This document shows, piece after piece, positions 3,001 through 63,600 of a stretch of DNA of 64,000 nt (position 1 is its first letter; every line of letters begins with the position of its first letter). Origin of the DNA: Phoenix dactylifera (taxonomy: Eukaryota > Streptophyta > Magnoliopsida > Arecales > Arecaceae). The stretch lies in contig NC_052393.1 of assembly GCF_009389715.1 (NCBI RefSeq), positions 806,001-870,000 on the forward strand, read 5' to 3'. The position numbers and the translations under genes were made by a program. The notes beneath the pieces are model-generated. The model was given only the letters and a program-made list of their open reading frames with translations. It ran no database searches and had not been told where the DNA came from.

Positions 3001-4050
3001 TTTAATTATATGATACTATAAATCCTAAAAAAGCTTCAATATTCTCGGCAAGACTATAGGAAAGTGATTGGTAAACAAAATAACAATTGATCTTATATTG
3101 CTTTGGCTTCGTGGAAACTAGAACATTGGTGACTTGAGTAGCACATGGGTTCCAATAATATAATAAAGTGGAAAACTTAGCAGTGTCAGCAAGTCAAAGA
3201 TGAAGCCAAACAACTCACATTGGAAAAGAATAAAATTAGCTTAAGTGTCGTAGTGGTCGATGATGCCTGCTTACTACATAAAGGCCCATCAGTAAAACAT
3301 ACTTACTACAGGGATGTTATTTGGCTGGAAGCTTGTAATCCGATACTTATCATGATTCATTATGAGAACTCCTATCTGAAATTTGCAATGCCGTTCCATT
3401 AATTGTGTTTTGACATACCTACAGTTGATAGCGGGTCCTGTGCTTTCTGCCATACACATCTATAGCGTAGTAGAAGAGATGCGAGCAGCTCCTGTCAACA
3501 CACTAAATCCCCAGAGGACGGCCATGATTGTAGCAGATTTTGCCAAGGTGCAAAACAGTCCTTTTCATTCAACCTACTCTGCATGTCTATGTTTGATCCT
3601 TACTGTTGCATTCCAAATCAGAATGGAAAAGTTTCCAGCCCAGCTGACTTGAGATACCGAGAAAATCTTCTCTTCCCTGACCGCATAATAGAGGAAGCTG
3701 GAAGTGTGAAGGTTGGGCAGCCACTCCGCAAAGTCTTGAATAAGTCTTCAAAGCTTGAGGAGCTTCGAGAAATATTCCCAAAGGAGAAGTTTCTGATCAG
3801 CTGCAACAACAAATGGACGGATCTGGTCCTGGAGCAAAGTGCGACAGGGGAGGATGCATTGAGGGGGTGGTTGGTTGCCGCTTTTGCTGCGGACATGGAG
3901 AAGTTGGGCCTTGGATCTAGCCAGACTGTTCTCCCTGCGGCCTATGGGAAGATGGAGAGTATCTTCCCTTCATTTCTATCTGAACTGAAGACAAGAGGAT
4001 GGCACACCGATCAGTTTTTAGATGGAAATGGCAGCAGATTTGCATTTTAA
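1..4050 (+). CDS. RUS5: ROOT UVB SENSITIVE family protein (DUF647), RUS5-like, 5'-partial
   Basis: Eight exons join in frame: 1-28, 129-213, 453-512, 598-691, 814-911, 1208-1387, 3425-3547 and 3622-4050 (TAA at 4048-4050). All introns visible here are GT..AG. They give about 365 residues of a DUF647 protein; the N-terminus, with any transit peptide, lies left of the window. Visible family blocks are LRPTPAQATAVSWILKDG, GNFAKGLAVVAARATRLPIY, AKGEAISTLFNVVG and VNTLNPQRTA; the C-terminus has GEDALRGWLVAA and ends near GWHTDQFLDG. From memory of Arabidopsis paralogues these fit RUS5 better than RUS1, 2, 3, 4 or 6. RUS1 and RUS2 act in root UV-B sensing and auxin transport; the biochemical role of RUS5 is not established. 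Intron 6 is long (1388-3424, about 2.0 kb). DUF647 membership is near certain; the RUS5 assignment is likely. Confidence 0.9.
1494..1523. repeat. Palindromic TACA/TGTA microsatellite in RUS5 intron 6
   Basis: About four TACA units run directly into about four TGTA units, so the tract can fold on itself. It lies inside the 2-kb intron and has no evident coding effect. Confidence 0.8.
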
Positions 4051-6447
4051 TGCATGTGCCATCTTCTTATTTCAGTTTCAGGATGAAAGCTAGGAACCCA
4101 TTTTAGTTTAAGGTGTGTTTTTTTAATCTCACACCAGTTTTGGCATTAGTAAGGGTCTCAACATCCTCCTTTTCTGGTGAGAGTTGTAACTTCACCATGT
4201 TGTGCATTCTGCAATTATTTTTATACATATTTTGAGGACATGTACATATTGAGTTGACTGTATGGAAGCTATTTTCTTTTCATACATGAAGCATTGCCAT
4301 AGTTACAAAATAATACTCAGCTCTTTTAAAAAATGTTTCCACATATTCACGAACTACTAATTTTTTGAGTTTTTTGAGTTATTCTCTTTGAATTTGCTCT
4401 TATAATAGCCTGGGTGTGTGAGAATATGAAGAAAATTAGAAACATCATGGAAGTTCCACACAGTTTTTTAATTCTTTGGTTAAACTGTCTCAACTCTCAA
4501 ATAATCGAACTTTTTACCAACTGATACCAATTCATAATTTATGCAAATTTGTCAAATAAGTAATTTTACAAATCATCATATACTAGAGGACTTTCTTTTG
4601 ATGCTTATTCCAGGCTCTCAACATACATAGACCATTTATTTTTTCATTTTCTCTATCCGTATATTATTTTTATATAATTTGTTCCCTACCGTCGCTTGGT
4701 GATATCATGAATTTTGTGACAATGCCCATTATGCTGAAATCAAACATAACAAATATAATATGGATTATCTGTCATGCCAGTCTCATTTGCTCTTGTTCAT
4801 TTATTGTTTCGTATTAGGAATCCCATCATCTTTTGATTTTGTTTTGCTCGTATTGTGCACTTGTGATAAACATTTTAGAATCTAGGGATGCTGCAATGAG
4901 TGTGTTACATGAAATCAGTCTATAATAGTATTGTTGCTGATCTGTATGTATTCTTGTTCTCTGAAGTGCAAATTCTGTTTCATCCGTTCTATGAATTCAA
5001 ATATCTTTAAGACTTGTGGCAAATTTTCATTTGTTTTCATTATCAATTCTTGATTGCCTGATGTTGGACAAGATAGGAAGTCGCAAAAGGATTGTACCCA
5101 AAATTTTAAGTAAGCACGATCGTGGGTCAGTTATTGTAAGACAAACAGCTTTCTTGTTTAATAGGCCTTTAGAGCCCTCCTAACCATTCTCAACAATGGG
5201 CTTTATTGGGTTTCATGCTAGAAAGGAATCTTGTTTTATTTTCGTTCTAAAGTTCTCTGACAAAGAAAGCAGGCGTGTATTGAAAACTGACGCTATTTTG
5301 TTGAAAGGAGAGATGTGCGTGGGAGGTAGGGATCCATCTCCTTCTTTAAGACGTCTAGAGCTTGGTGAGAGGATGCGTTTCTTTTGGAGCGAGGCACATT
5401 TACAAGAAAGCAAACGGTGTAGTGCCGTGGATTGAATGGTTTCTTTTCTGGACCGAAGAAGTGCAGTTGCCGGAGGTTTTTCGGAATTTGTTGTTTTCCG
5501 ATTTTCTTGGATGTTCTCGTACTAGAGTAGTATGAATTACACGTTATAGCAAAAAGAAAAAAAAGAATAAGAAGGTAGAGATATTTTTGCTCCATATGTT
5601 TGTTTTTTTTGGCCCTTTTACCGGTCTTAGATCACATGCCTTGCGAGTATACCATTTAGTGGTTCATAAGTGTCGATTAGTTTCAACGGTCATTATAGGC
5701 TTTGAAATCAGCAGTTTGCTGCCATAATGCAGCATTTGGAAATTGATGTTCAGCTAATGGTGGCACTGAAAAGGTAAAAGAAAAGGGTAGGTTTTGGTGA
5801 AGCAAAAGTTTCTTATTAACAGTTTTTCTTTGTTATCTCCGGAGTCCGGAGAAGAGAGATGACTAGCTAATCAGTAATCCATTCAACTTGTCAGTCTCAA
5901 GTTGCGTGATCTTTAAGTCTTCTACTAAGAATGAAAAATTTTGGTGGTCTTCTTCTAATCTTAGTAGCATTTTCCCCCTTTCTTTTGACTTAATTCTGAC
6001 ATTGGTAGCCAGTCCACAACATGTGTTCTGACTGGAGTTGTCTCCCGCGCATGCCAGACCAGTCACAAGTTAATCTTCAGTGGTAAACCTTAATCATCTT
6101 CATGTTATTATCAAACAGGAGGACCATAGCATAGAATGTTTATAACCAACGGTGTTATTGATTTATTGTTAATTTTGATTTTTATCTGGTTCCCATAGTT
6201 ATTAAAAATAATCATCCCTCATTATAAACAACAATTTGTAAGTTGGAAGGCTGTTTTGAGAGTTCTTGGCGTTCAGAATGAGTGCTTAGTTAATGCATAG
6301 CTGATCGAGAGTTAGATTTGGTCTGGGTTCTACGTGTTCAATTTAATTTGGTGTGACTTGATGCAAAAGTTTAATCAGATTGCCTTGGGCTTACATGGTG
6401 TAAGTCTGTAAGCTTATTTAATAAGGTTTTGGACCGGGTTAAGCTTG
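4051..6447. other. RUS5 3' UTR and intergenic DNA, no gene seen
   Basis: The first 200-300 bases after the RUS5 stop are probably its 3' UTR. The rest is AT-rich. The open frames on both strands (for example 5196-5435) are short, resemble no known family and show no exon structure. Confidence 0.6.
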
Positions 6448-6452
6448 GAATC

Positions 6453-6760
6453 TGTTGCGGGGACGGCATTTTGCCTAGCCCACATTAAGCTAGCAGAGAA
6501 AGAGGACTGCGTTCCTCCCGAGGTATTGTCCGCTTTGGGCGCTCCAGCCCGCACGTCCAGCGCAGACGGGGAGGACCACTGCCCTTTGGGCGCTCCGGCC
6601 CGCGCGTCCAGCGCAGACGGAGGGAGACCACTGCCCTCACGGTTTGCCCTTTAAAAGGTGCCTCGAGAGGAAAGGTTTTCCAACCCCCATTTAAGGCACA
6701 GAACCTTCCCGCTACTAGCCGATGTAGGATTAAATTCAAGACCCCTCCCCTCCCGCAACA
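6453..6760 (-). repeat. TRIM 3' LTR (element on minus strand)
   Basis: It is 308 bp long and GC-rich unlike its surroundings. Inside, a unit of about 53 bp built around GGGCGCTCC and GTCCAGCGCAGACGG occurs twice in tandem (about 6530-6636). Confidence 0.85.
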
Positions 6761-6849
6761 TAGCCCCCCCAGTGGGAAGGTTATTGAGCCTCCACAGTCC
6801 TGAGGGGTAGTCAACAGTCGGAGGAGGCGCCCCTACCTGGCGCGCCATC

Positions 6850-7176
6850 TGTTGCGGGGACGGCATTCTGCCGGAGCCTCACACAACAGCCTAGCTCATA
6901 TTAAGCTAGCAGAGAAAGAGGAATGCGTTCCTCCCGATGTATTGTCCGCTTTGGGCGCTACGGCCGCGCGTCCAGCGCCGACGGGGGAGACCACTGCCCT
7001 TTGGGCGCTCTGGGCCGCGCGTCCAGTGCAGACGGGGGGAGACCAGTGCCCTCACAGTTTTGCCCTTCAAAAGGCGCCTCGAGAGGAAAGGTTTTTCAAC
7101 CCCCATTTAAGGCACAGAACCTTCCCGCTGCTAGCCGATGTGGAACTAAATTCAAGGCCCCTCCCCTCCCGCAACA
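6850..7176 (-). repeat. TRIM 5' LTR (element on minus strand)
   Basis: It is 327 bp long and closely similar to 6453-6760. It carries the same ~53-bp internal tandem unit, plus a short extra stretch (GAGCCTCACACAACAG) near its left end that the partner LTR lacks. Confidence 0.85.
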
Positions 7177-7380
7177 GAATCCAATAATTCGGTTTGAATC
7201 CGATCCAACTTTTGAATTTGGATCGAGTACATAAGAATATAACCAGTTACAGAGTTGGATTAGGATCTAAGCAAAAAGAAAAAGAAAAAAAGGTTTCTCA
7301 ATTAGATTTATTTTGGATGGAACCATGTCTACTATTGATAGATCCAACACCTGGCCATATAGTCCCCACCTCCCTCCCAT

Positions 7381-8072
7381 ATAGGCCCCATTTGGTAGAG
7401 CTTTTGGAAGGCCAAAAAGTACTCTCTGATCCTCTAAAATCATTTTTAGATAGAATAGGGGTGTTTCGTAAAAAAATCGAGAAGATGTTTTAGCTTTGCT
7501 AGAAAGCTAAAACAACTTTTTTGAAGAAGTTTTATCTCTAAAAAAATACTTTTAGGCTCCATCGGAAAGCTGTTTTGAGTTATATTTTTTTTTAAAACCA
7601 AAATACTCATGATAAAATATAATAATTACAGATAATAATAATATTAATATATAATAATAATAATAATATTTTTATATCTTAATTATTGTATTATACTATA
7701 AATATAATATTATATTACATTATATCATAATACATTGATATATTATGTTATATTATATCAAATTATATTATATTATTATGCTAAAATATACAATATTATA
7801 TTACTATATTATAGTAGTATTATATTACATTACAGTAATATTATACTATATTATATATTTATGTATTAATACATATTATATTTTTGTATGCACTATAGTA
7901 TAATACTATGCAATATCCTTTATAGTCATTTTGTCATACCAAAAGTACTTTTTTAGTTTGTTTACTAAATACATATCAAAGTCTCCCTGCACTTTAGAAA
8001 TATATTTACCAAATAACAAATAGTTTTTTTATAAAAGCTCTACCGCCAACAGCTCTGCTAAATGGGGCCATA
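7381..8072. mobile_element. MITE-like element with GGCCCCATTT terminal inverted repeats
   Basis: The left end at 7384 reads GGCCCCATTTGGTAGAGCTT; the right end at 8069, read on the other strand, reads GGCCCCATTTAGCAGAGCTG. The inverted ends are about 25 bp and imperfect. ATA directly abuts both sides (7381-7383 and 8070-8072), which fits a 3-bp target duplication. The interior is extremely AT-rich, dominated by ATAATA and ATTATA strings, with no open frame. A 3-bp duplication would fit a PIF/Harbinger (Tourist) type; the superfamily is a guess. Confidence 0.7.
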
Positions 8073-17086: not shown

Positions 17087-17800
17087 GGTCTCAAAATATT
17101 AGTTAAATAATAAGCTCTGGTTTATTGGTAAGTGGAATAGGATATCAATTAATGAGGTGGATTCGATGCAGTTAACAAAAAATCGAAATCGGACCCGAAA
17201 TCTACCATCGCTTGTTGAAACCAAAACCATTTTTGTATTCATTTTTGTATTCATTTCGTAATTTTTACATATAAATAATCAAATTAAAAAGCACCATCTA
17301 TAATTTTTATAATATCATTCATATCAATTTAATGGATAAATATATCCAAAACTAATAACATTGCCGCTAAACAAACTCAGTTAATAATATAACCATCAAC
17401 TTTATTCAAAGTCTATAATTTTATTAATATCAAGAAAAGTTTTATAGATTACCTCATCAACATAAAAGTCATTTTCACTATTATCTTATGGAGTTCCTAA
17501 TTTAGATTTATACTAAATACAAGAGGCATTAAGAATGTTACTTATGCAGTATGTTCAGTAATAGGTTCGGTATCAAGTTTAGTGCCGGATTAAGTTTTGG
17601 GTTAGAGAATTCATCAGAATCGAAACTGAAGCCAAAATCGAATAATTTTTTTAATTTTTAAAACCATTATTTGAACCATCCCCATTTAATTTGAATTAAA
17701 ACTACTTCATTCGGTTCAAAGCCAAATAAAATATTTAGATACCCATTCATGTTGACATCCCTAAAGTGGAACAATCCATGCCTATTAAGGATGGGATATA
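17087..17800. other. AT-rich repeat-like intergenic DNA
   Basis: Degenerate sequence with recurrent phrases of the AAATCGAAATCGG / GGTTCGGTATC type (17180-17720). No reading frame or gene is supported. Confidence 0.4.
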
Positions 17801-17813
17801 TTTTAACATCATT

Positions 17814-17960
17814 TGTAATAATTTAGGTCCTCACTCAAAATAAATAATCAAAAGATATTATTTAAAATTTTTGATTCTATATAAATACGCAAGATATCCC
17901 TAGCATAATCGGTATCGAACTAAACATACACTCGTATGAGTCCTCGTAGCAAAATGCCTC
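17814..17960 (-). repeat. Decayed LTR of the TGTAAcAACC family
   Basis: It starts TGTAATAATTTAGGTCC and contains a TTTGATTCTATATAAATACG block and a GAACTAAACATACACTCG block in the same order as the copies at 22014 and 63453. This copy is the most diverged of the three. It is preceded by ATCATT, as at the primer-site junctions of the other copies. Confidence 0.5.
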
Positions 17961-21904: not shown

Positions 21905-22150
21905 TTGTAACAACCAAGGTATTTTTTTGGGTTTATGGTTACACTCGATGAACCCGTATTATAGTGTTCCCTAGTCCATATAGGCTATGGGCCGAATTCG
22001 CTCTGATATCATTTATAACAACTCAGGACCTCATCCAAAATAGCTAAATGAAAGGTAGTATTTAGGTTTCTTGATCCTATATAAGTATCCAAAACCTAAC
22101 GAATAACCGATGTGGGACTAAACACATGCTCGCACATGCCTTTAGAATAA
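21905..22150 (-). mobile_element. LTR/primer-site remnant of the TGTAAcAACC family
   Basis: On the minus strand an LTR (about 22150 down to 22014) is followed by AA and TGATATCAGAGC (22011-22000). That is one change from the plant tRNA-iMet primer site TGGTATCAGAGC. The LTR contains TTGATCCTATATAAGTATCC and GATGTGGGACTAAACACATG on the plus strand. A second TGTAACAACC at 21905 may be the start of a shortened partner LTR, which would leave a very small internal region. No coding sequence. Confidence 0.6.
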
Positions 22151-37368: not shown

Positions 37369-40300
37369 TCATACTATATGGATACAAATACACCCAGTAG
37401 AACCTACAAACAAAAGGTCCTGAAATGCACCAAGCAAGTCATCCTCGCCAACCCATAGGGTGCCTCCTGAGTGGCTCGCAACATACACCGCCACCCAGAC
37501 CGCCGCCCCGTTTGCCTCACGATATACATGCATAGCCTAAAAAGTAAACCCCTCCCTCACCATCAACCATATATCACGAAGCAAAGGATGGACCCCTCCA
37601 TCTCTGTGAGAGCCCCTCCGGATCCAGCTGATCACCGTGGCCGAGTCACCCTCTAGGAGGATGGAGCTCGCCAGAAGCACATGTCGTGCATACCGTAATC
37701 CCATCCAAGCCGCCCGTAGCTCTGCCCCTCGGACCGAGGTGTCAAAGATCTGACAATCCCCTGCTGCCACCATGCTGGAGCTCGGACCCCTAATAACAAA
37801 CCCTGCTCCTCCTCTCCTACCTCCATCCAGGACCGAGCCATCAAAATTGACCTTGAGGAAGCTCGGGGGTGGGAGCTGCCAGGTGAAAAACACCGTGTGA
37901 GAGGCTGCCGAAGCAGCATGGGGGCCCCAGGTGTCCCGAGCTGTCAAAGGTCTATGATCCGGACCTACATTAAGGATCTCAGCTTCCTGTGCCTGCGCCC
38001 GCTCCATCACGAATCGTGGGGACAGGCTAGGCTCACCGAAAACTCGGGCGTTCCTGGCCATCCATACCTGATAAGCTATGCAGGACGCCCTAATAGCCAT
38101 AGAACGCATCTAGTAGGAACTGGACCAACGCCGGACCTCTTCCAGAAAATAATCCCTTCGACTCCACGCTACCTCCAGAATCCCGGACAGCCTCCAAGCC
38201 CTCCTTGCCCAGACACATTGGAATAGTGCGTGGTCCACTGACTCGTCTACCTCACAATACTGGCACAGAGGAGGAATGCTAACTCCACATCGGCTCAGCG
38301 CCAAGCTCGTCGGCAGACGGTCCCAGGCTACCTTTCAGAGGAATAATGCAACCCTCCGACGTAGCCCAAACCTCCATACCCAGCCACAGTCCCTACCCAG
38401 CTCCGACTTCTGCTGAATAACCCGAAAAACATCCCCAACCTTGTCGCTGGCCGTACAAGTGGTGCTCCATACCCTAACATCTGGACTTGCTGATCCTGGA
38501 AGGGGGAGAGCCCGTACCCGCTCTGCTAAGTGCTTCCCGAATAACTCACCCAGCCTATCATCATCCCACTCTGCCTCCCCAGGTATGAGGAGGTCGTACA
38601 CTCGGAGTCCAGCAGTTCCCTCACCACTGATCATCGTCGGCCACAGCCTCAGCAGAAGTGCATCCATCCAAGGGTCCTCCATCACATCAATGCTCCGTCT
38701 GTCGCCAATCAACCACTTAGTATGTGCCAGAGCCATAGGCATATACCTCCCAACCTCCCGCCACATGAAAGATATCCTCCGGCCGCCCACCACCTGGCCT
38801 ACTGAGCCTGCCCGACCATATCTCGCTATCATGACCTGACTCCAAAATCCATGTGGCTCTAGAACAAACTGCACTGCTCGTTGCGCCAGGAGTGCCTCAC
38901 GCCTCGCCAACAGTGACTGCACCCCCAAGCCACCCTCACTCAGAGGCAGGCAAACTCTCTCCCAGGCCACCAAATGTACCCCGTGGCCCCTCCCATAGGA
39001 GCCCCACAGAAAACTACGCATAATCCGCTCTATCCCCGCTAGCACCGTCTTCGACACAATAGAATGGGCCATAATGTAAACAGGCATAGAGCAGAGGACA
39101 GACCTGACCAACATCAACCTGCCCATCATAGAGAGTGACGAGGCTCTCCAACCCTCGAGCTTGCTCCGCACCCTCTGCACCAAAATGGAACACTCAGCCA
39201 TCCGCAGCCTCCTTCCTGTGATGGGAACTCCCAGGTAGTCTAGTGCCTCCTCCTGCTCCCGCATCTATAATATCGCCCTGATCTCCTGTCTGACTCTCCA
39301 CTCTATGCTCGGACTGAAGTGTATGGATGACTCTTGGCAATTGATCCTCTACCCGGACGCCGCACAATACTCCATCAATACCCTCTGGAGGGCTCGCGCG
39401 TCCCTCACCCTCGTCCTGGCCAGTAGCAGGCAATCATCTGCAAAAAGTAGGTGAGAAATGGGGTGAGCACCCGGGGCTGGACTGTAAGCAGCCAACTCCC
39501 GGTTCTCGCATGCTACATGTAAAGCACGGGATAGTGCATCAGAATAGATGATGAACAGGTAAGGGGATAGAGGACATCCCTGACAAAGCCCTAGAGTAGC
39601 CCGAAAGAAAGGCGAAGGCGTACCATTGACCAAAATGGAGAACCTAGGCCCCTGCACGCAGCCGAGAATCCAGTTAATCCAGGTCTGATGGAATCCAAAG
39701 CTCTCCAATGCCCGTCTAGGAAAGTTCCATCGAATCCGGTTATAAGCACGCTCCATGTCCAGCTTTACTGCCAGCAAACATCGCCTCCTCGGGGCCCGCT
39801 GTAAGTCTCCCATCATTTTCTGAGCTAGCAAAATATTATCTGAAATACTCCTCCCTCCCACAAACGCACCCTGCTCCTGACTGATAATGCTAGGCAGCAA
39901 AGCCTTCATCCTCCCAACCATAAGCCTCACCGCTATCTTGTACAAAGTGGTACACAAACTAATAGGCCGGTAGTGGCCCGGCTCCGACGCATCCTGATGC
40001 TTCGGGACCAAAGTGCTATAAGTAGCCTGCCAGTCATCTGCCATCATCGCCCTACTGAAGTATAGCTGCATTGCCTCCACCACTGACCTCCGAATGATGC
40101 TCCAATATCTCCGAAAGAAAAAGGATGGAAATCCGTCCGGTCCAGGAGCATTGTCCTCTGCTAAGGCCCAAACCACTTCCTGCACTTCTTGATCTGACAC
40201 TGGCTGAATCAATGCTTCATTATCAGCCTCCTCAATTCTGACGGCCGGCCTGGGGAGCTGACCAAGCACATAGCCCCCCCCCCGCCTCCGTCCATTTGGA

Positions 40301-41515
40301 TCTGAAAAAATCGAACATCACCTGTCTTACTGCCAAGTCCTCCTCCACCCGCTGACTCGCCCCAGCTCTCAGTGATCGTATCATGTTCCTTTACCTCCTG
40401 ATGATCGTCGATCGAAGAAAAAAGCTAGTATTTCGGTCCCCCTCCTTAACCCACTGTGCCCTCGACTTCTGCCTCCAAAAAATCTTCTGCTGATGCAGTA
40501 GCGACTGGTGATAGGTCAAGTGACGTCGCAGGTCTGCCATCTCAACCTCCTCCAGCTCCCCATCTCGATCCTCCCTCCCCTAGAGATCCGTAATCAACCC
40601 CTCTACCTCCTCTAGTCTCCGAAAGATGTTGCCCACAACCTCTCGGTTCCATCTGCGAAGGCGTCGTTTAGTAAGCTCCAATCTGCGCGACACCCTTTGC
40701 ATGGCATCTCCCTGCACTGGCATGCCCCAGGCCCCCCTAACTACTTTCTAAGACTGGGGGTATGACAGCCACAGCTTCTCAAATCGGAATGGGCTATGGT
40801 GGCTGGAGCTCGAAACTGTAGAAATCAAAAGAGGACAATGATCTGAAGCAATCCGAGCAAGGTGACTAACCTGGTATGATGGGAAGCGCTGGATCCAGTC
40901 CGGAGCTGCAAAAGTCCTATCAAGCCGCTCCCATACTCGCGCTCGTCCAAGCTGGTTGTTACACTAAGTAAATCGCGGCCCGGAGAAGCCAAGGTCCACT
41001 AGGCCGGTCTCATCCAAAAACTCCCGAAACTCCCTTCTGTCCACTGAATCAGAGTAGGCCCTACCACCTCGTTTCTCATTAGAGCTAAGAATGCAATTAA
41101 AGTCACCCACCACCATAGTCGGGACTCCCTGAGTCAACAAACAGGTCAGCTCGCCCCAAAGGACTCTCCTCGTCCGGTAATCAGTGCTAGCATAGACCCC
41201 ACACAGGATCCACGAAGGTTCATTTGGTTCCGAGATGACCATCACAACCTGCTGAGAACAATTGCGAAAAACATCTACAGAAGCCACCCCTCGCTTCCAC
41301 AACATCAAAATACCTCCAGACAAGCCCTAAGATTCTACTATAAAGGAATCCCAATCAAGTGCTAAGCGTCGCTGCACTCGACGCAACCCTTCTCCGGACA
41401 CCCTTGTTTCACAAAGAAAGCAAATCTCAGGGCAATGTAGCTGTACTAACCTCTTAAAGGATGATAAGAAGGAAGGCTTGGCCGCCACCCTGCAATTCCA
41501 AGCTAAAATCTTCAT
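37369..41515 (-). pseudogene. LINE ORF2 (endonuclease, reverse transcriptase, RNase H), broken
   Basis: Read on the minus strand, 41515 begins MKILAWNCR, the start of an APE-type endonuclease; VVGDFNCIL is visible at about 41125. The reverse transcriptase (about 40230-39360) has APGPDGFPSFFFRRYW, YRPISLC, CQGCPLSPYLF and the catalytic FADDC. Next come a zf-RVT-like Cys/His region (near 38330-38200) and an RNase H domain (VNFDGSVLDGG, LEGDSATVISWIRRG), ending at a TGA at 37371-37369. About 1,380 codons in all. It is broken by ten in-frame stops (at 41327, 40964, 40748, 40580, 40391, 39349, 39265, 38335, 38110 and 37537) and one frameshift, best placed at the nine-base C/G run near 40280. Apart from that shift one frame runs throughout. 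Confidence 0.93.
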
Positions 41516-41541
41516 TTAACACTGTGGGATGAGGTGTGGCC

Positions 41542-43625
41542 CTATCTTCGTGGGCTTCTCACTTCCTGTGCAGGCCTATCCTCCTTCGCCGACTCCCCAC
41601 CTCCCTGAATCGCAGCACGTAGCAAATCAGCTACCTTCCCATGCTCTTGAATAGGAGAAGTGGTGCCCTGTCCCATGCCCCCAAGTATGCCTCTCATCAC
41701 CACCACCGTAGAAGAAGATGGGGAGAGCCTTACCGGAGCTGTTAGAGGTCTGAGAGATCCCTCCACATCCTCCGTTTCAAGCTTCCCCTTGTTTCTCTGA
41801 CACGATGAGGAAAACGCCTTCCTTTGTGACACCGTTGCCGAGATCACCTCCCTCCACTGGTGCAGGTCCATCGTCACCTCCTGCTGACCCTTTCCTTTAG
41901 CCGGAGCCTTGCCACCATCGCCAGCCACGGCTGCACGCGGAGATGGGGCCTCACCTACCACCGTCGTCCCGCTCGCCGCAGGTGTTCCGTCCACCGCTCG
42001 CAGGGTCCCAGCAGCTCTATCAACGGTTGGGCCACCGCCCGTCATCGGTCGGCTGGGGGCTCTCGCCGACGGCAGGGAGGCACTCCGGAAGTGCCTCCGA
42101 CCTTCCTCCCTCTGGCGTAGGCGAGGGTTTTCGAAGGAAGACGATGACGCCGACCGGGCCAGCTGAGTCAACTCAGCCCTATCCGCTCCCGATGCACTGC
42201 TCAACTTAGCTGGGCTTTTGGTCCGTTTCAATGGGCTTTGGCCCTGTCCATGGGCCAGCCCAGTTGCAGCAACTTGGCCCTTTACCACATGGCCCGGCTC
42301 GTCAGTAAGGGGTAGGCCCGAGATTGTCATGGCCCATCCCGGCTCAGTTCCGCCTTGCTATCCCAAACACGTGGTCGAGTCCGACCCTTTGACGGAATCC
42401 AGGTCAGACCCCAACACCACACCGAGTGGAGTCATCTCGGTATCCAGCACCGGTGCACCCATCGTCTTCGTCTCCGGTGACCTTCTCCTAGCCAGTTTAG
42501 TTGGCTTTTGCCATCCGTCCGTGTCCGTGGGCGATACAGGGAGGTTCGACGCAGCAATGGGAGACCTCGGCCCCGACTCAGGGGGATGATCCTGCACCGG
42601 CATAGTTTGGACAACCTTCGTGACAGTGGCCTTCTTCATCGACTTGTTCACCTTCAGCTGCCATACCTTGGTTGTTGTCAGCCACGGGCCAAAGGGCAGC
42701 TGACTCCCCAAAACATTCCCCTTCTTCGACTCAAATGTCGGCTCCTGTGGGGGCTCCTCCGTCTTGGTTTGCTGGGAGCACTGATCTACCGGATCTCCGG
42801 GCTTCGTCGGATCCGTGGGAGGAAAAGGGCAAGCCCCCTCTCTGTGCCCCAACCGGGCACACTTGTAGCAGAACCCAGGTAGGTTTTTGTAGCGGAAAGC
42901 CTGCCAATGTAGGTCAAATCCTACCTGGATGAAAGTCCCCGGCCGGAACGGCACACCCACATCCACCTAAACCTTGACACGGTCGAAGCCCAGTTTCCGG
43001 CCTTGGTCAGTGACCTTGTCCAGCGCCAAAGGTCGTCCAGCCTTCGCCGCGATACCCCAGATCATCTCCTTCGTCCAGTATTCCATCAGCAAACTTGGCA
43101 ACCGGAGCCAAACTACCGTCCGGCACAACTGGTTGGTCCCCGGAACAAAGTTTGGCTGCCAACGCTCCATAGCCAGGAGCTGACCACCCACCAGCCAGGG
43201 TCCACCTTCCATGGCCGCCTCCCGATCCTTCTCACACCAAAAATGGAACGTAAAGGTCTCGTCCGCCATCGTAAACTCCTCGACATCATAGTCGAGTTTC
43301 CTGGCCACACGCAACTCCCGGCTATCCATTCCACCGGCATGCGATGCCCCAGGCTGTGCATGATCACCGTGGTATCACGCCACACCGCCCTGGCCACCTC
43401 CTTCTTCTCTGGCGAGATCTCGACTACATCCGTGAAGCGCCGTTTTAGGGCTTCCAGCTCCGCCGTCGTGATTTGGTGGTTGGTCCAGGACGGCATCCTC
43501 GACGAGCCCTTTACCACATTTGCCCATGTCCTGCTCTTCTTTGGCGCCTTTGGGTGGGTTTGCTCCCCTTTGTCACCCGAGCTCGCCTCCATCTTCTCCG
43601 GCTCCGCAGCACCCAACGTTGCCAT
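41542..43625 (-). pseudogene. LINE ORF1 (DUF4283 and CCHC zinc knuckle), broken
   Basis: On the minus strand the likely start is 43625 (MATLGAAEPEKMEASSG). A DUF4283-type region follows (FTFHFWCEKDREAAMEGGPW, LRLPSLLMEYW), then a CCHC knuckle CYKCARLGHREGAC near 42870, and a low-complexity basic C-terminal part. A frameshift near 43325 and two in-frame TAG stops (42967-42969 and 42358-42360) break it. It ends at 41542, 26 bp before ORF2. It would be the RNA-binding, gag-like protein of the element. Confidence 0.9.
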
Positions 43626-43737
43626 CCTCCACACTACCTCGTGTTTGTTGAAATGCTCCACCGGTAGCACGATTCCTAAAGCACTGTCACAGCATCTCAC
43701 TGACCCGTCTCGTGGGTCTCTCCGGCTAATTATTTTT

Positions 43738-46337
43738 CTCTTCTTTACAATCTAAATGAGAGAGTTAGTGTGCTTCTTGCCCCTTGTGCTCCCATTTTAG
43801 GGGAAAAAACACTTAAATGATTTTTTTATTACAAAAAATCCGCAGGTTCCTTTTATGATTTGTGTTTTATTTTCTGATAAAGATAGTTTAAATATTTCCA
43901 AAACAAAAAATAGAGAGGATCAAATAACTTTTCGATTTGTATTTTCGTATATGTACACATCTTGCTAAAAAGAAAAAAAAGTAGTGGTCAAGAGAAAAAT
44001 TTTACATACCTAGTTGAAAGGCTACTGTTCTTCATATATAATTATCCAGAATTTTTTTTATTATTATCTAACATCTTTCATGAATCAATATCTATTCACA
44101 AATAATTTTAATCCTTGCTTATATTGGGATACAGTAGAAGTAGAAACCCCTTCAGTTAACTATCAAAAAAAATAGTTTTAGAGGAGCATCATGCGATGTG
44201 ACAATGCTATCTAACCCTGGCCGTGTTGTGGAAATATATTGGTCTAGGAGTTTGGTTTCCACCGAGAAATGGTTAAATGACTCACATGGCTTGGATATAC
44301 TTATGAAAAGCGATTTTGGTCATCAACTTTTTTTAGTGGAAAAGTTAATTAGAAGAAGAAAGTTTGGATGGTGGGCTTATTGGGTCGGATAGAATCAGAT
44401 ACAGATCGGATTGGATGCGAGTCGAATCAAAAATTAATTAACTCAAGCCTGATCTGTTTATTAAATAGGACAAAATTTTAAATTTAAATCCGACATATTT
44501 ATTAAATGAGTAATCCAACCCAACCCACATTATCTAATTATTAAACAGGCCAAGTCGGGTTAAACGAGTTAAATGGATTTTTAACGGGTTAAATAGATTT
44601 AAATTGGTTAAATAAGTTAAGCATGTTGGTCAAGTTAAATATGTTACGAACAAGTTAAGCATGTTTCTAACAATTTAAATAAATTTTAAATAGGTTAAAT
44701 GGGTCGGGTCTTAACCAGACTTAATTATTAAATGGGTTAAACGAGTCAATATTTTAAACTTGAACCCAATCTATTTGATAGTCAGATTTAGACAGGTTGA
44801 CACATATAAGACCTAAACTTATTTATATCAAACCCAAATCTGCTTAAAAAAGAATTGTTCATGGATCAAATTGATAAATCGGATCATAAAAGGCCAACCC
44901 TATCTCTATCCTCCTCTCATGCTCAGCTGGTACCTATCGTGGATCCCGTTGCTCTGAGCCTGAGCAAGAATAGATAGCTCCATCGAGGGGCTCTGAGCCT
45001 AAGCAAGAATAGATGCCGTGAAGTTCCCCTTCTTCGACTGAAAGCTGACGACAAAACCAAGGTTCTTTGGTTTAAACTCCTCTTGAGTCCGAGGAGAAGA
45101 AGGATGAGGAGGTAACTATAGTGGTGTCGCTCTTGCTTAGTAAAGGAAGAAGGAAAAAGAAAGAGAAGAAGAGAGGAAGATAAGGAGAAGAAAATATAGA
45201 AGGAAAATGAAAATTATGCTTTCAGTTTCGACATCTCGGGAATCTCTAAGTGGCATGCTTCTTCTATATCAGATTTCTTATCTTTATTATATTTTCTCCA
45301 TGTTATTTTCTCTCTGTTTATTACAATGGATCCCTTGCTATCTTGGTGGATGTAACCTAGATTTTGGATTAGCCATATTAAATCTTAGTATAATGTGCTT
45401 TTTTTTTTTCTTTCTAATTATTTTATTGAGCTATTCCTAGATATAATTGAGAGGAGGAAGTGGAGGGTGGCATATGGTGCGAAGTCGAGAAGGACTTGCC
45501 CAAGGAAGAAGCAGTGATTTGATTTTTATGTTTTTTTCTTAACTTTTGTTTTGGTTGATCTAGGAGGAATATTTATTTATTTATTTATTTTGTAATCTAA
45601 AGTTGTCAAAATTGAAAAATTACTAGTTTTTAACGGTGTTTAGATGAAATCAAATACAACTTTCTCGTTTGATATATTGATGTTGAGAAGAAAGACAAGA
45701 TGAGCTTGATGAAGATCAGTCTAATCTAATGAAATTTACATGAGAGACCATGCCTTGATACTTGACTGCTCCGCATATGATTGCTCTATATGGATGTCCG
45801 GATTATAACGTTGTTTGTTGGATTAGCTATGATAGACACGTGGTGTGCATGGACTCGTGGGTTATGATAATAGCTATCAGCTTATCATAATTGCGATTTT
45901 TAAAAAAAATAGTGTTGCCCTTATGCATGTGTAGTCATATATGATTTATGATTGATTGAACAAATGATCCATGCCAAGAGTTTCCGTTACATAAAAAAAA
46001 ATAGAAGATATTTTAAAAGCCAAACAGGATCAGCTTGTTGAATTGATTGGACCGTCAATCAACAATTCAAATTTACACCAAAAACTGTTTCTTTGTAAGA
46101 ATCATCCTTTTTTTAGTTGAACCAGGAAGAATCGTTGGCTGAACCGCTAATTCTTTTATATCGTTTCAATTCAAGCGAACTGACTAGTTTTTATATAATT
46201 TAAAGAGGATTCAAAATCAAAGATTAGGGTTCAAAAATGAATTTTTTTATCATCTATTTTGCAATGCATGATGTCCTCCATGATTCGGAAAGCAAATACT
46301 CATGGTGTAGGATGGAGACGACTGACAACATCAGATC
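43738..46337. other. AT-rich intergenic region
   Basis: No gene recognised. The open frames 44198-44392 and 45207-45440 carry no known motif. Contains the simple repeat listed separately. Confidence 0.5.
44540..44770. repeat. Degenerate GGTTAAAT-type minisatellite
   Basis: Irregular tandem units of about 12-15 bp built on GGGTTAAA and AGTTAAG. It is not a true telomere repeat, because spacing and sequence vary. Confidence 0.6.
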
Positions 46338-46559
46338 CCCTCTGTTGTGGGATGGGATTCCGAACTTTAGTTTCATATCGGCTAATCAGCGGAAAAGTCT
46401 GTGCCTTATAATGAGGAGGCCTAAAACCTTTCCTCACGAGGCGCCTTTTGAAGGGCAAAACCGTGAGGATAGGAGCAGTACCTCCGCGGACCCCCGCGCC
46501 GTATGATCCAGTCGCTTTTCTTGCTCGGTCAGTGTGCAGGCTGTTGCCGGGGTTCCCTC
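46338..46559 (+). mobile_element. Probable solo LTR related to the 6.4-kb TRIM
   Basis: From 46343 it reads TGTTGTGGGATGGGATTC, then ATCGGCTAATCAGCGG, CTGTGCCTTATAATG, CCTTTCCTCACGAGGCGCC and TTTTGAAGGGCAAAACCGTG. This is the order found on the minus strand of the TRIM LTRs. It ends near CTGTTGCCGGGG. CCCTC flanks both sides (46338-46342 and 46555-46559), but the right end does not finish in CA. It is about 212 bp against 308-327, so it has lost internal sequence. Confidence 0.7.
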
Positions 46560-63147: not shown

Positions 63148-63600
63148 TGTTGAGACTTCTACCAAATAGGCTAGCCAAAAAGTATTATGTGGGTTTCTTA
63201 GCCGTGTATAAGTACTCAAGATCTACCCAGTGCATAGCATAAGACTAAAAGATACACCAAAATGGGTTTACACATACTCCTCCTGTTTAAGCCTAAACAT
63301 CCTCACTAGGCTAAAGATCCAAATCCATTCAAATCCAATTACAAATACCACAAATTCAATTTACAAACACCACGATCAACCAGTGGCCAGTTTAGATAGG
63401 CCTGTGCAGCAGTGCCCCTAATCCACATGGCTGGGTCCGCTCTGATATCATTTGTAATAATCCAAGACATCATCCAAAAAGACTAGACGAAAAATGTTAT
63501 TTGGATTTCTTGATCCTGTATAAGTATTAAAACTTTACCCAGTGCATAGCACATGTGGAACTAAATACATGGCCACATAGGTCCTCACGCATGTCATCAT
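63148..63600 (-). mobile_element. Short LTR element (TRIM-like) with tRNA-iMet-type primer site
   Basis: Two partly similar copies lie at about 63148-63262 and 63453-63600. Both have GTATAAGTA, CTACCCAGTGCATAGCA or TTACCCAGTGCATAGCA, and CCAAAAAG. On the minus strand the right copy ends in a TGTAATAATCC-type LTR edge (63453), followed by AA and TGATATCAGAGC (63450-63439), one change from the plant tRNA-iMet primer site. The internal stretch between the copies is only about 190 bp. The left copy is more diverged, so the two LTRs are old or come from different insertions. Same family as 17814 and 22014. Confidence 0.6.

Follow-up and report, generated by a model that had tools for sequence, protein, structure and literature searches.

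A candidate TRIM with a putative arginine-type primer site and a possible USE/TATA pair in the LTRs in Phoenix dactylifera

A 724-bp element occupies positions 6453-7176 of a 64,000-nucleotide stretch of Phoenix dactylifera contig NC_052393.1 (hereafter the window). Taken as a whole, the element is best explained, and with considerable confidence, as a terminal-repeat retrotransposon in miniature (TRIM) that lies on the minus strand and was probably mobilised by a larger relative. It consists of two direct repeats, the long terminal repeats (LTRs), and the 89 bp between them; the assignment to the minus strand corrects the initial annotation.

Anatomy of the element and the TRIM reading

TRIM elements of plants were reportedly described by Witte et al. 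in 2001. One survey counts 289 TRIM subfamilies across 43 plants, and the published sizes are 500-900 bp, with repeats of 100-350 bp. The reading of the present element as a TRIM, already put forward in the initial annotation, is accepted because its size, LTRs, TGT...ACA termini, 5-bp duplication, primer site, G-rich tract and the lack of a protein domain in its longest frames all fit (Table 1). LTRs of 308 and 327 bp, separated by 89 bp and flanked by GAATC on both sides, had been described beforehand, and all of them are present. The GAATC copies at the two outer sides are exact. With the ends fixed, the chance of such a 5-bp duplication is approximately 0.0015 as calculated from flank composition; as an empirical check, a 5-bp match at equal spacing occurs at 94 of 63,260 window positions.

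Table 1. Positions of the element's features, and of a diverged relative, in the window
Feature	Position	Strand	Remark
Target-site duplication GAATC, first copy	6448..6452		
3' LTR, 308 bp	6453..6760	-	
51-bp tandem duplication, 3' LTR	6533..6637	-	
TATA-like TTAAAT, 3' LTR, 25 nt after USE-like site	6689..6694	-	candidate
USE-like site ATCCTACATCG, 3' LTR, 1 mismatch to RTCCCACATCG	6720..6730	-	candidate
Internal part, 89 bp, GC 0.64	6761..6849	-	
G-rich tract GGGGGGGCTA adjoining 3' LTR	6761..6770	-	putative polypurine tract
Primer site TGGCGCGCCAGGTAGGGG, 18 nt	6830..6847	-	GA (2 nt) between 5' LTR and site
5' LTR, 327 bp	6850..7176	-	
51-bp tandem duplication, 5' LTR	6949..7052	-	
LTR positions 83-127, best kept in 46-kb relative (43/45 columns)	7050..7094	-	around putative RNA start
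TATA-like TTAAAT, 5' LTR, 25 nt after USE-like site	7105..7110	-	candidate
USE-like site GTTCCACATCG, 5' LTR, 1 mismatch to RTCCCACATCG	7136..7146	-	candidate
Target-site duplication GAATC, second copy	7177..7181		
Diverged relative of LTR positions 1-127, 106/131 columns identical	46343..46468	+	alignment stops at 127

The GC content is 0.60 in both LTRs and 0.64 in the internal part, against 0.39 in the window, in agreement with the description of the LTRs as GC-rich in AT-rich surroundings. Each LTR also contains the internal tandem unit that had been noticed earlier, but it measures about 51 bp, at 2.0 copies in each LTR, and not about 53 bp. The primer-site-like and polypurine-like tracts expected within the 89 bp could both be located, as TGGCGCGCCAGGTAGGGG and GGGGGGGCTA. 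Additionally, CCCAAAGCGGACAATA occurs in both LTRs on the minus strand, at 6533-6549 and 6949-6965. This string may be frequent in plant LTR-like repeats, in which case it would hint at a wider family; a literature search with AAAGCGGACAAT returned no paper confirming that frequency. A long AT-rich simple-repeat stretch lies at 7612-7889, about 430 bp beyond the element.

The definition of Gao et al. 2016 (PMC4717578) requires an element shorter than 1,500 bp that encodes no retrotransposon protein and, as a third criterion, that different target duplications flank two complete copies, or one complete copy plus a solo LTR. The element measures 724 bp. Among its 14 frames of at least 40 aa, the three longest were scanned against Pfam and matched nothing at E values up to 1; this agrees with the earlier claim that the element has no coding capacity, and a coding role was rejected on the same three frames. 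In its anatomy, TGGCGCGCCAGGTAGGGG follows the 5' LTR and GGGGGGGCTA precedes the 3' LTR. As for copies, the window contains one full element with GAATC and a relative at 46.3 kb, where CCCTC may be a duplication but a clear far end is lacking. The features listed as common to TRIMs in the same paper (less than 1,500 bp, short LTRs, a 5-bp duplication and no retrotransposon protein) are those found here, and the element is likened to its 156 families by anatomy, not by sequence.

If the element moved as a TRIM, transcription would have started within the 5' LTR, some 30 nt downstream of the TATA-like box, and the RNA would have been packaged by another element. Reverse transcription may then have been primed with tRNA-Arg(CCT), and the second strand presumably started at the G-rich tract GGGGGGGCTA. 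Insertion would have been carried out by the integrase of the helper with a 5-bp stagger.

Anatomy alone cannot separate a TRIM from a one-off deletion derivative, that is, a larger LTR retrotransposon which lost nearly all of its inside and was never mobile as a small element, because TRIMs themselves arise by internal deletion. Their derivation from larger elements in this way is stated by Gao et al. (PMC4717578) and, together with the single full copy in the window, speaks for such a derivative. However, the primer site and the G-rich tract are kept within the 89 bp that are left, as in published TRIMs. This is a weak argument, as a deletion could leave the same arrangement, and the derivative is considered unlikely. 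Another explanation treats the element as part of a satellite or as a local tandem duplication, with no retrotransposon involved. The nearness of the two repeats, with 51-bp tandem copies inside them, is consistent with it; the exact 5-bp outer duplication, the TGT/ACA termini, the tRNA-type primer site and the lack of any further adjoining unit in the window are not, and the idea is scarcely credible. A satellite array was thus rejected: the window holds none, and the element is present there once, accompanied by one diverged relative of its LTR.

Divergence, relatives and surroundings

Alignment of the two LTRs gives 282 identical positions of 307; the other 25 are substitutions, and 19 of the 21 gap columns form one block. 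The substitutions comprise 19 transitions and 6 transversions (K2P 0.087). At three substitution rates, 1.3e-8, 7e-9 and 2e-9, this distance corresponds to an age of 3.4, 6.2 or 21.8 My, none of which is preferred. Because the LTRs differ by both substitutions and gaps, the copy is not young even though its structure is intact; the word 'intact' in the initial annotation is therefore justified for the structure and not for the youth of the copy. CpG is not depleted in the LTRs despite their 8% divergence (observed/expected 0.82 and 0.81, against 0.57 in the window).

The diverged LTR relative at 46 kb was counted in favour of the TRIM reading. Counted against it were the presence of only one full copy in the window and the extent of the relative, which resembles the LTR over positions 1-127 only and has no clear far end. 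CCCTC stands before this relative (46338-46342) and again at 46555-46559, a possible target duplication; since a clear LTR far end is lacking, the relative was not counted as a proven solo LTR. Other similarity to the element in the window is confined to a 28-nt match at 63.5 kb and a 19-nt match at 22.1 kb.

The element lies 2.4 kb beyond a Root UVB sensitive frame at 3466-4050. Elsewhere in the window, Pfam matches were obtained for 8 of 10 frames scanned, namely RVT_1, RVT_3, zf-CCHC_4, Root UVB sensitive, Myb, malate dehydrogenase, Slu7 and DUF761. A GC-rich region at about 37500-43750 on the minus strand, in which frames in several pieces match RVT_1, RVT_3 and the CCHC zinc knuckle, looks like a non-LTR (LINE-type) retrotransposon. 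At 63150-63590, also on the minus strand, two diverged direct repeats stand 312 bp apart (77% over 87 nt), and behind the first of them comes TGATATCAGAGC, a string similar to the tRNA-Met primer site TGGTATCAGAGC; the pair may be the remains of a second TRIM or LTR element. Sequences related to this 63-kb repeat, at 71-75%, are found at 21985-22135 and 17790-17945 on the minus strand, and in the copy at 22 kb an exact USE and TATATA 24 nt on precede TGATATCAGAGC.

The primer site and the probable helper

Over its 18 nt, TGGCGCGCCAGGTAGGGG fits the 3' terminus of a plant tRNA-Arg(CCT) sequence that does not come from the host. ARAGORN calls this sequence tRNA-Arg(cct). Among alternative primers for the element, a tRNA-Met site agrees at no more than 5 of 12 positions, and a Lys site at 13 of 18. 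The 64-kb window has no other site within three mismatches of TGGCGCGCCAGGTAGGGG, and so no partner carrying this primer site is present in it. A search of one open-licence library yielded no paper with TGGCGCGCCAGGTAGGGG.

As judged from the primer type, a Ty3/gypsy element of the Tat/Ogre kind is the probable helper, since reports of arginine primers concern non-chromovirus gypsy lineages. In a plant LTR survey (PMC6317226), methionine is the primer of those copia lineages that have complete tRNA primers, and the primers of non-chromovirus gypsy lineages are mainly alanine, arginine, aspartate, lysine and tryptophan; an arginine primer is likewise given for Ogre-type elements in PMC9289625. 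As portrayed in PMC6317226 and PMC9289625, Ogre/Tat-type Ty3/gypsy elements share the tRNA-Arg primer with the present element but are large and coding, whereas this one is small, and the likeness concerns the primer type and not the sequence. The lack of a partner with TGGCGCGCCAGGTAGGGG in the window counts against the TRIM reading as a whole. Against a gypsy helper stands that the flowering-plant TRIM partners, meaning their larger relatives, in Gao et al. (PMC4717578) are all Ty1/copia, in contrast to the arginine-type primer site found here.

The promoter question and known small LTR elements

Each LTR carries one site with a single mismatch to the USE, the plant snRNA element RTCCCACATCG, followed by TTAAAT after 25 nt, which is the spacing of U6-type promoters. 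In the plant U6/U3 arrangement, the distance between USE and TATA is shorter by one helical turn than in snRNA genes read by Pol II, according to PMC9845283. A refinement of the TRIM reading, built on these motifs, would give transcription of the element to RNA polymerase III, with a gene-external promoter of the snRNA type (USE + TATA) in the LTR; this is regarded as improbable. In its full form, where the USE and TATA would be read through SNAPc and a U6-like transcript, primed with tRNA-Arg, would travel on a gypsy helper, the proposal is equally doubtful.

Beyond the element, the only exact USE of the window (22108-22118, minus strand) belongs to another LTR-like repeat; TATATA comes 24 nt later, and a string resembling the tRNA-Met primer site stands further on. 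A TATA-like hexamer at 21-28 nt accompanies all three window sites with at most one mismatch, while 100 random sequences gave a mean of 0.01 and a largest value of 1. Moreover, LTR positions 83-127, around the putative RNA start, are better kept in the 46-kb relative than positions 1-82 (43/45 against 63/86 columns, p 0.0019).

Several points weigh on the other side. The cases are two independent ones at most, because the two LTRs of the element copy one sequence, and the choice of eight hexamers, of a range of 21-28 and of LTR position 82 for the split was made with the sequence already known. Three sites with at most one mismatch fall within the random range (mean 0.84, largest 3, in 100 random sequences), and sites with at most two mismatches are barely enriched, at 25 against 16.7, a count of 25 being reached in 5 of 100 shuffles. 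Neither LTR is perfect, also when measured by the refined consensus TMCCACATCG in PMC12268498, where single USE changes could abolish the activity of tested U6 promoters. A TTTT at LTR positions 105-108, within the 83-127 segment and about 8-11 nt after the putative start, would be expected to stop Pol III. The second family is uneven across its four copies, with spacings of 24, 28 and about 22 nt and a fourth copy without the USE core. Between the two LTRs of the element, positions 83-127 are not clearly better kept (3/45 mismatches against 6/82). The default explanation is the use of the same TATA box by Pol II.

Pol III promoters have been proposed for TRIMs before: in Kojima 2024 (PMC10886601), 'TRIMp3' denotes TRIMs with proposed Pol III promoters and a 5S or tRNA sequence in the LTR. 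As depicted there, Cassandra, Ajax and Helenus resemble the present element in being TRIMs whose LTR may hold a Pol III promoter. Their LTRs contain 5S or tRNA sequence, of which nothing was detected here; the motif of the present element is of the gene-external snRNA type. Cassandra and Ajax were rejected as identities, since Rfam scans of the window, and of 6440-7190 at E up to 10, gave no 5S match. Helenus was rejected as well: neither ARAGORN nor Rfam found a tRNA sequence in the LTRs, and both LTRs show A-box-like matches and no B box. The fold of the element is better than that of 20 of 20 shuffles (z -3.16), and 20 shuffles are weak evidence; this is reminiscent of the 'super-hairpin' described for Cassandra.

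Other small LTR elements share part of this anatomy. Retrozymes, as described in PMC4918200, are also non-coding, with LTRs of 300-400 bp, a primer site and a polypurine tract, but they have 4-bp duplications, a tRNA-Met primer and hammerheads, in contrast to the 5-bp duplication, arginine-type site and absence of a detected hammerhead here. A retrozyme was rejected because the duplication is 5 bp instead of 4 and no hammerhead was matched in Rfam; the hammerhead core CTGATGA is also absent from both strands. SMART (FRetro129) is, in PMC3281118, a tiny non-coding LTR element with a 5-bp duplication too, but it measures 292 bp with 85-bp LTRs and is known from grasses, against 724 bp for the present element.

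A microRNA was likewise rejected: the Rfam match to MIR8139 at 7061-7112 scores 15.2 bits, where the cut-off is 90, with E 4.1, and is taken as chance. Exact-pattern scans of viral contigs and of bacterial and archaeal genomes produced 0 matches, as expected for plant DNA. In one open-licence library, judged by titles and the starts of abstracts, no paper on snRNA-type promoters (snRNA element, SNAPc) in LTR elements was among those listed, and searches with TCCCACATCGG, CCCACATCG (together with 'retrotransposon') and AAAGCGGACAAT led to no paper about the element.

As a TRIM, the element is one more case in a common plant class, the kind being well known. Its arginine primer, if confirmed against the tRNAs of the host, would connect a TRIM of a flowering plant with a Ty3/gypsy helper, as opposed to the copia-only partners in Gao et al. 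The USE/TATA pair raises the question of whether the snRNA transcription machinery is used by some plant LTR elements. With Pol III promoters already proposed for TRIMs in PMC10886601, an snRNA-type version could be new; on evidence that is thin, a Pol III promoter of this kind in the LTR would, if true, represent a new promoter type for a TRIM. In that event, the second LTR-like family, with its exact USE at nearly equal spacing, may point to a wider habit of plant LTR elements.
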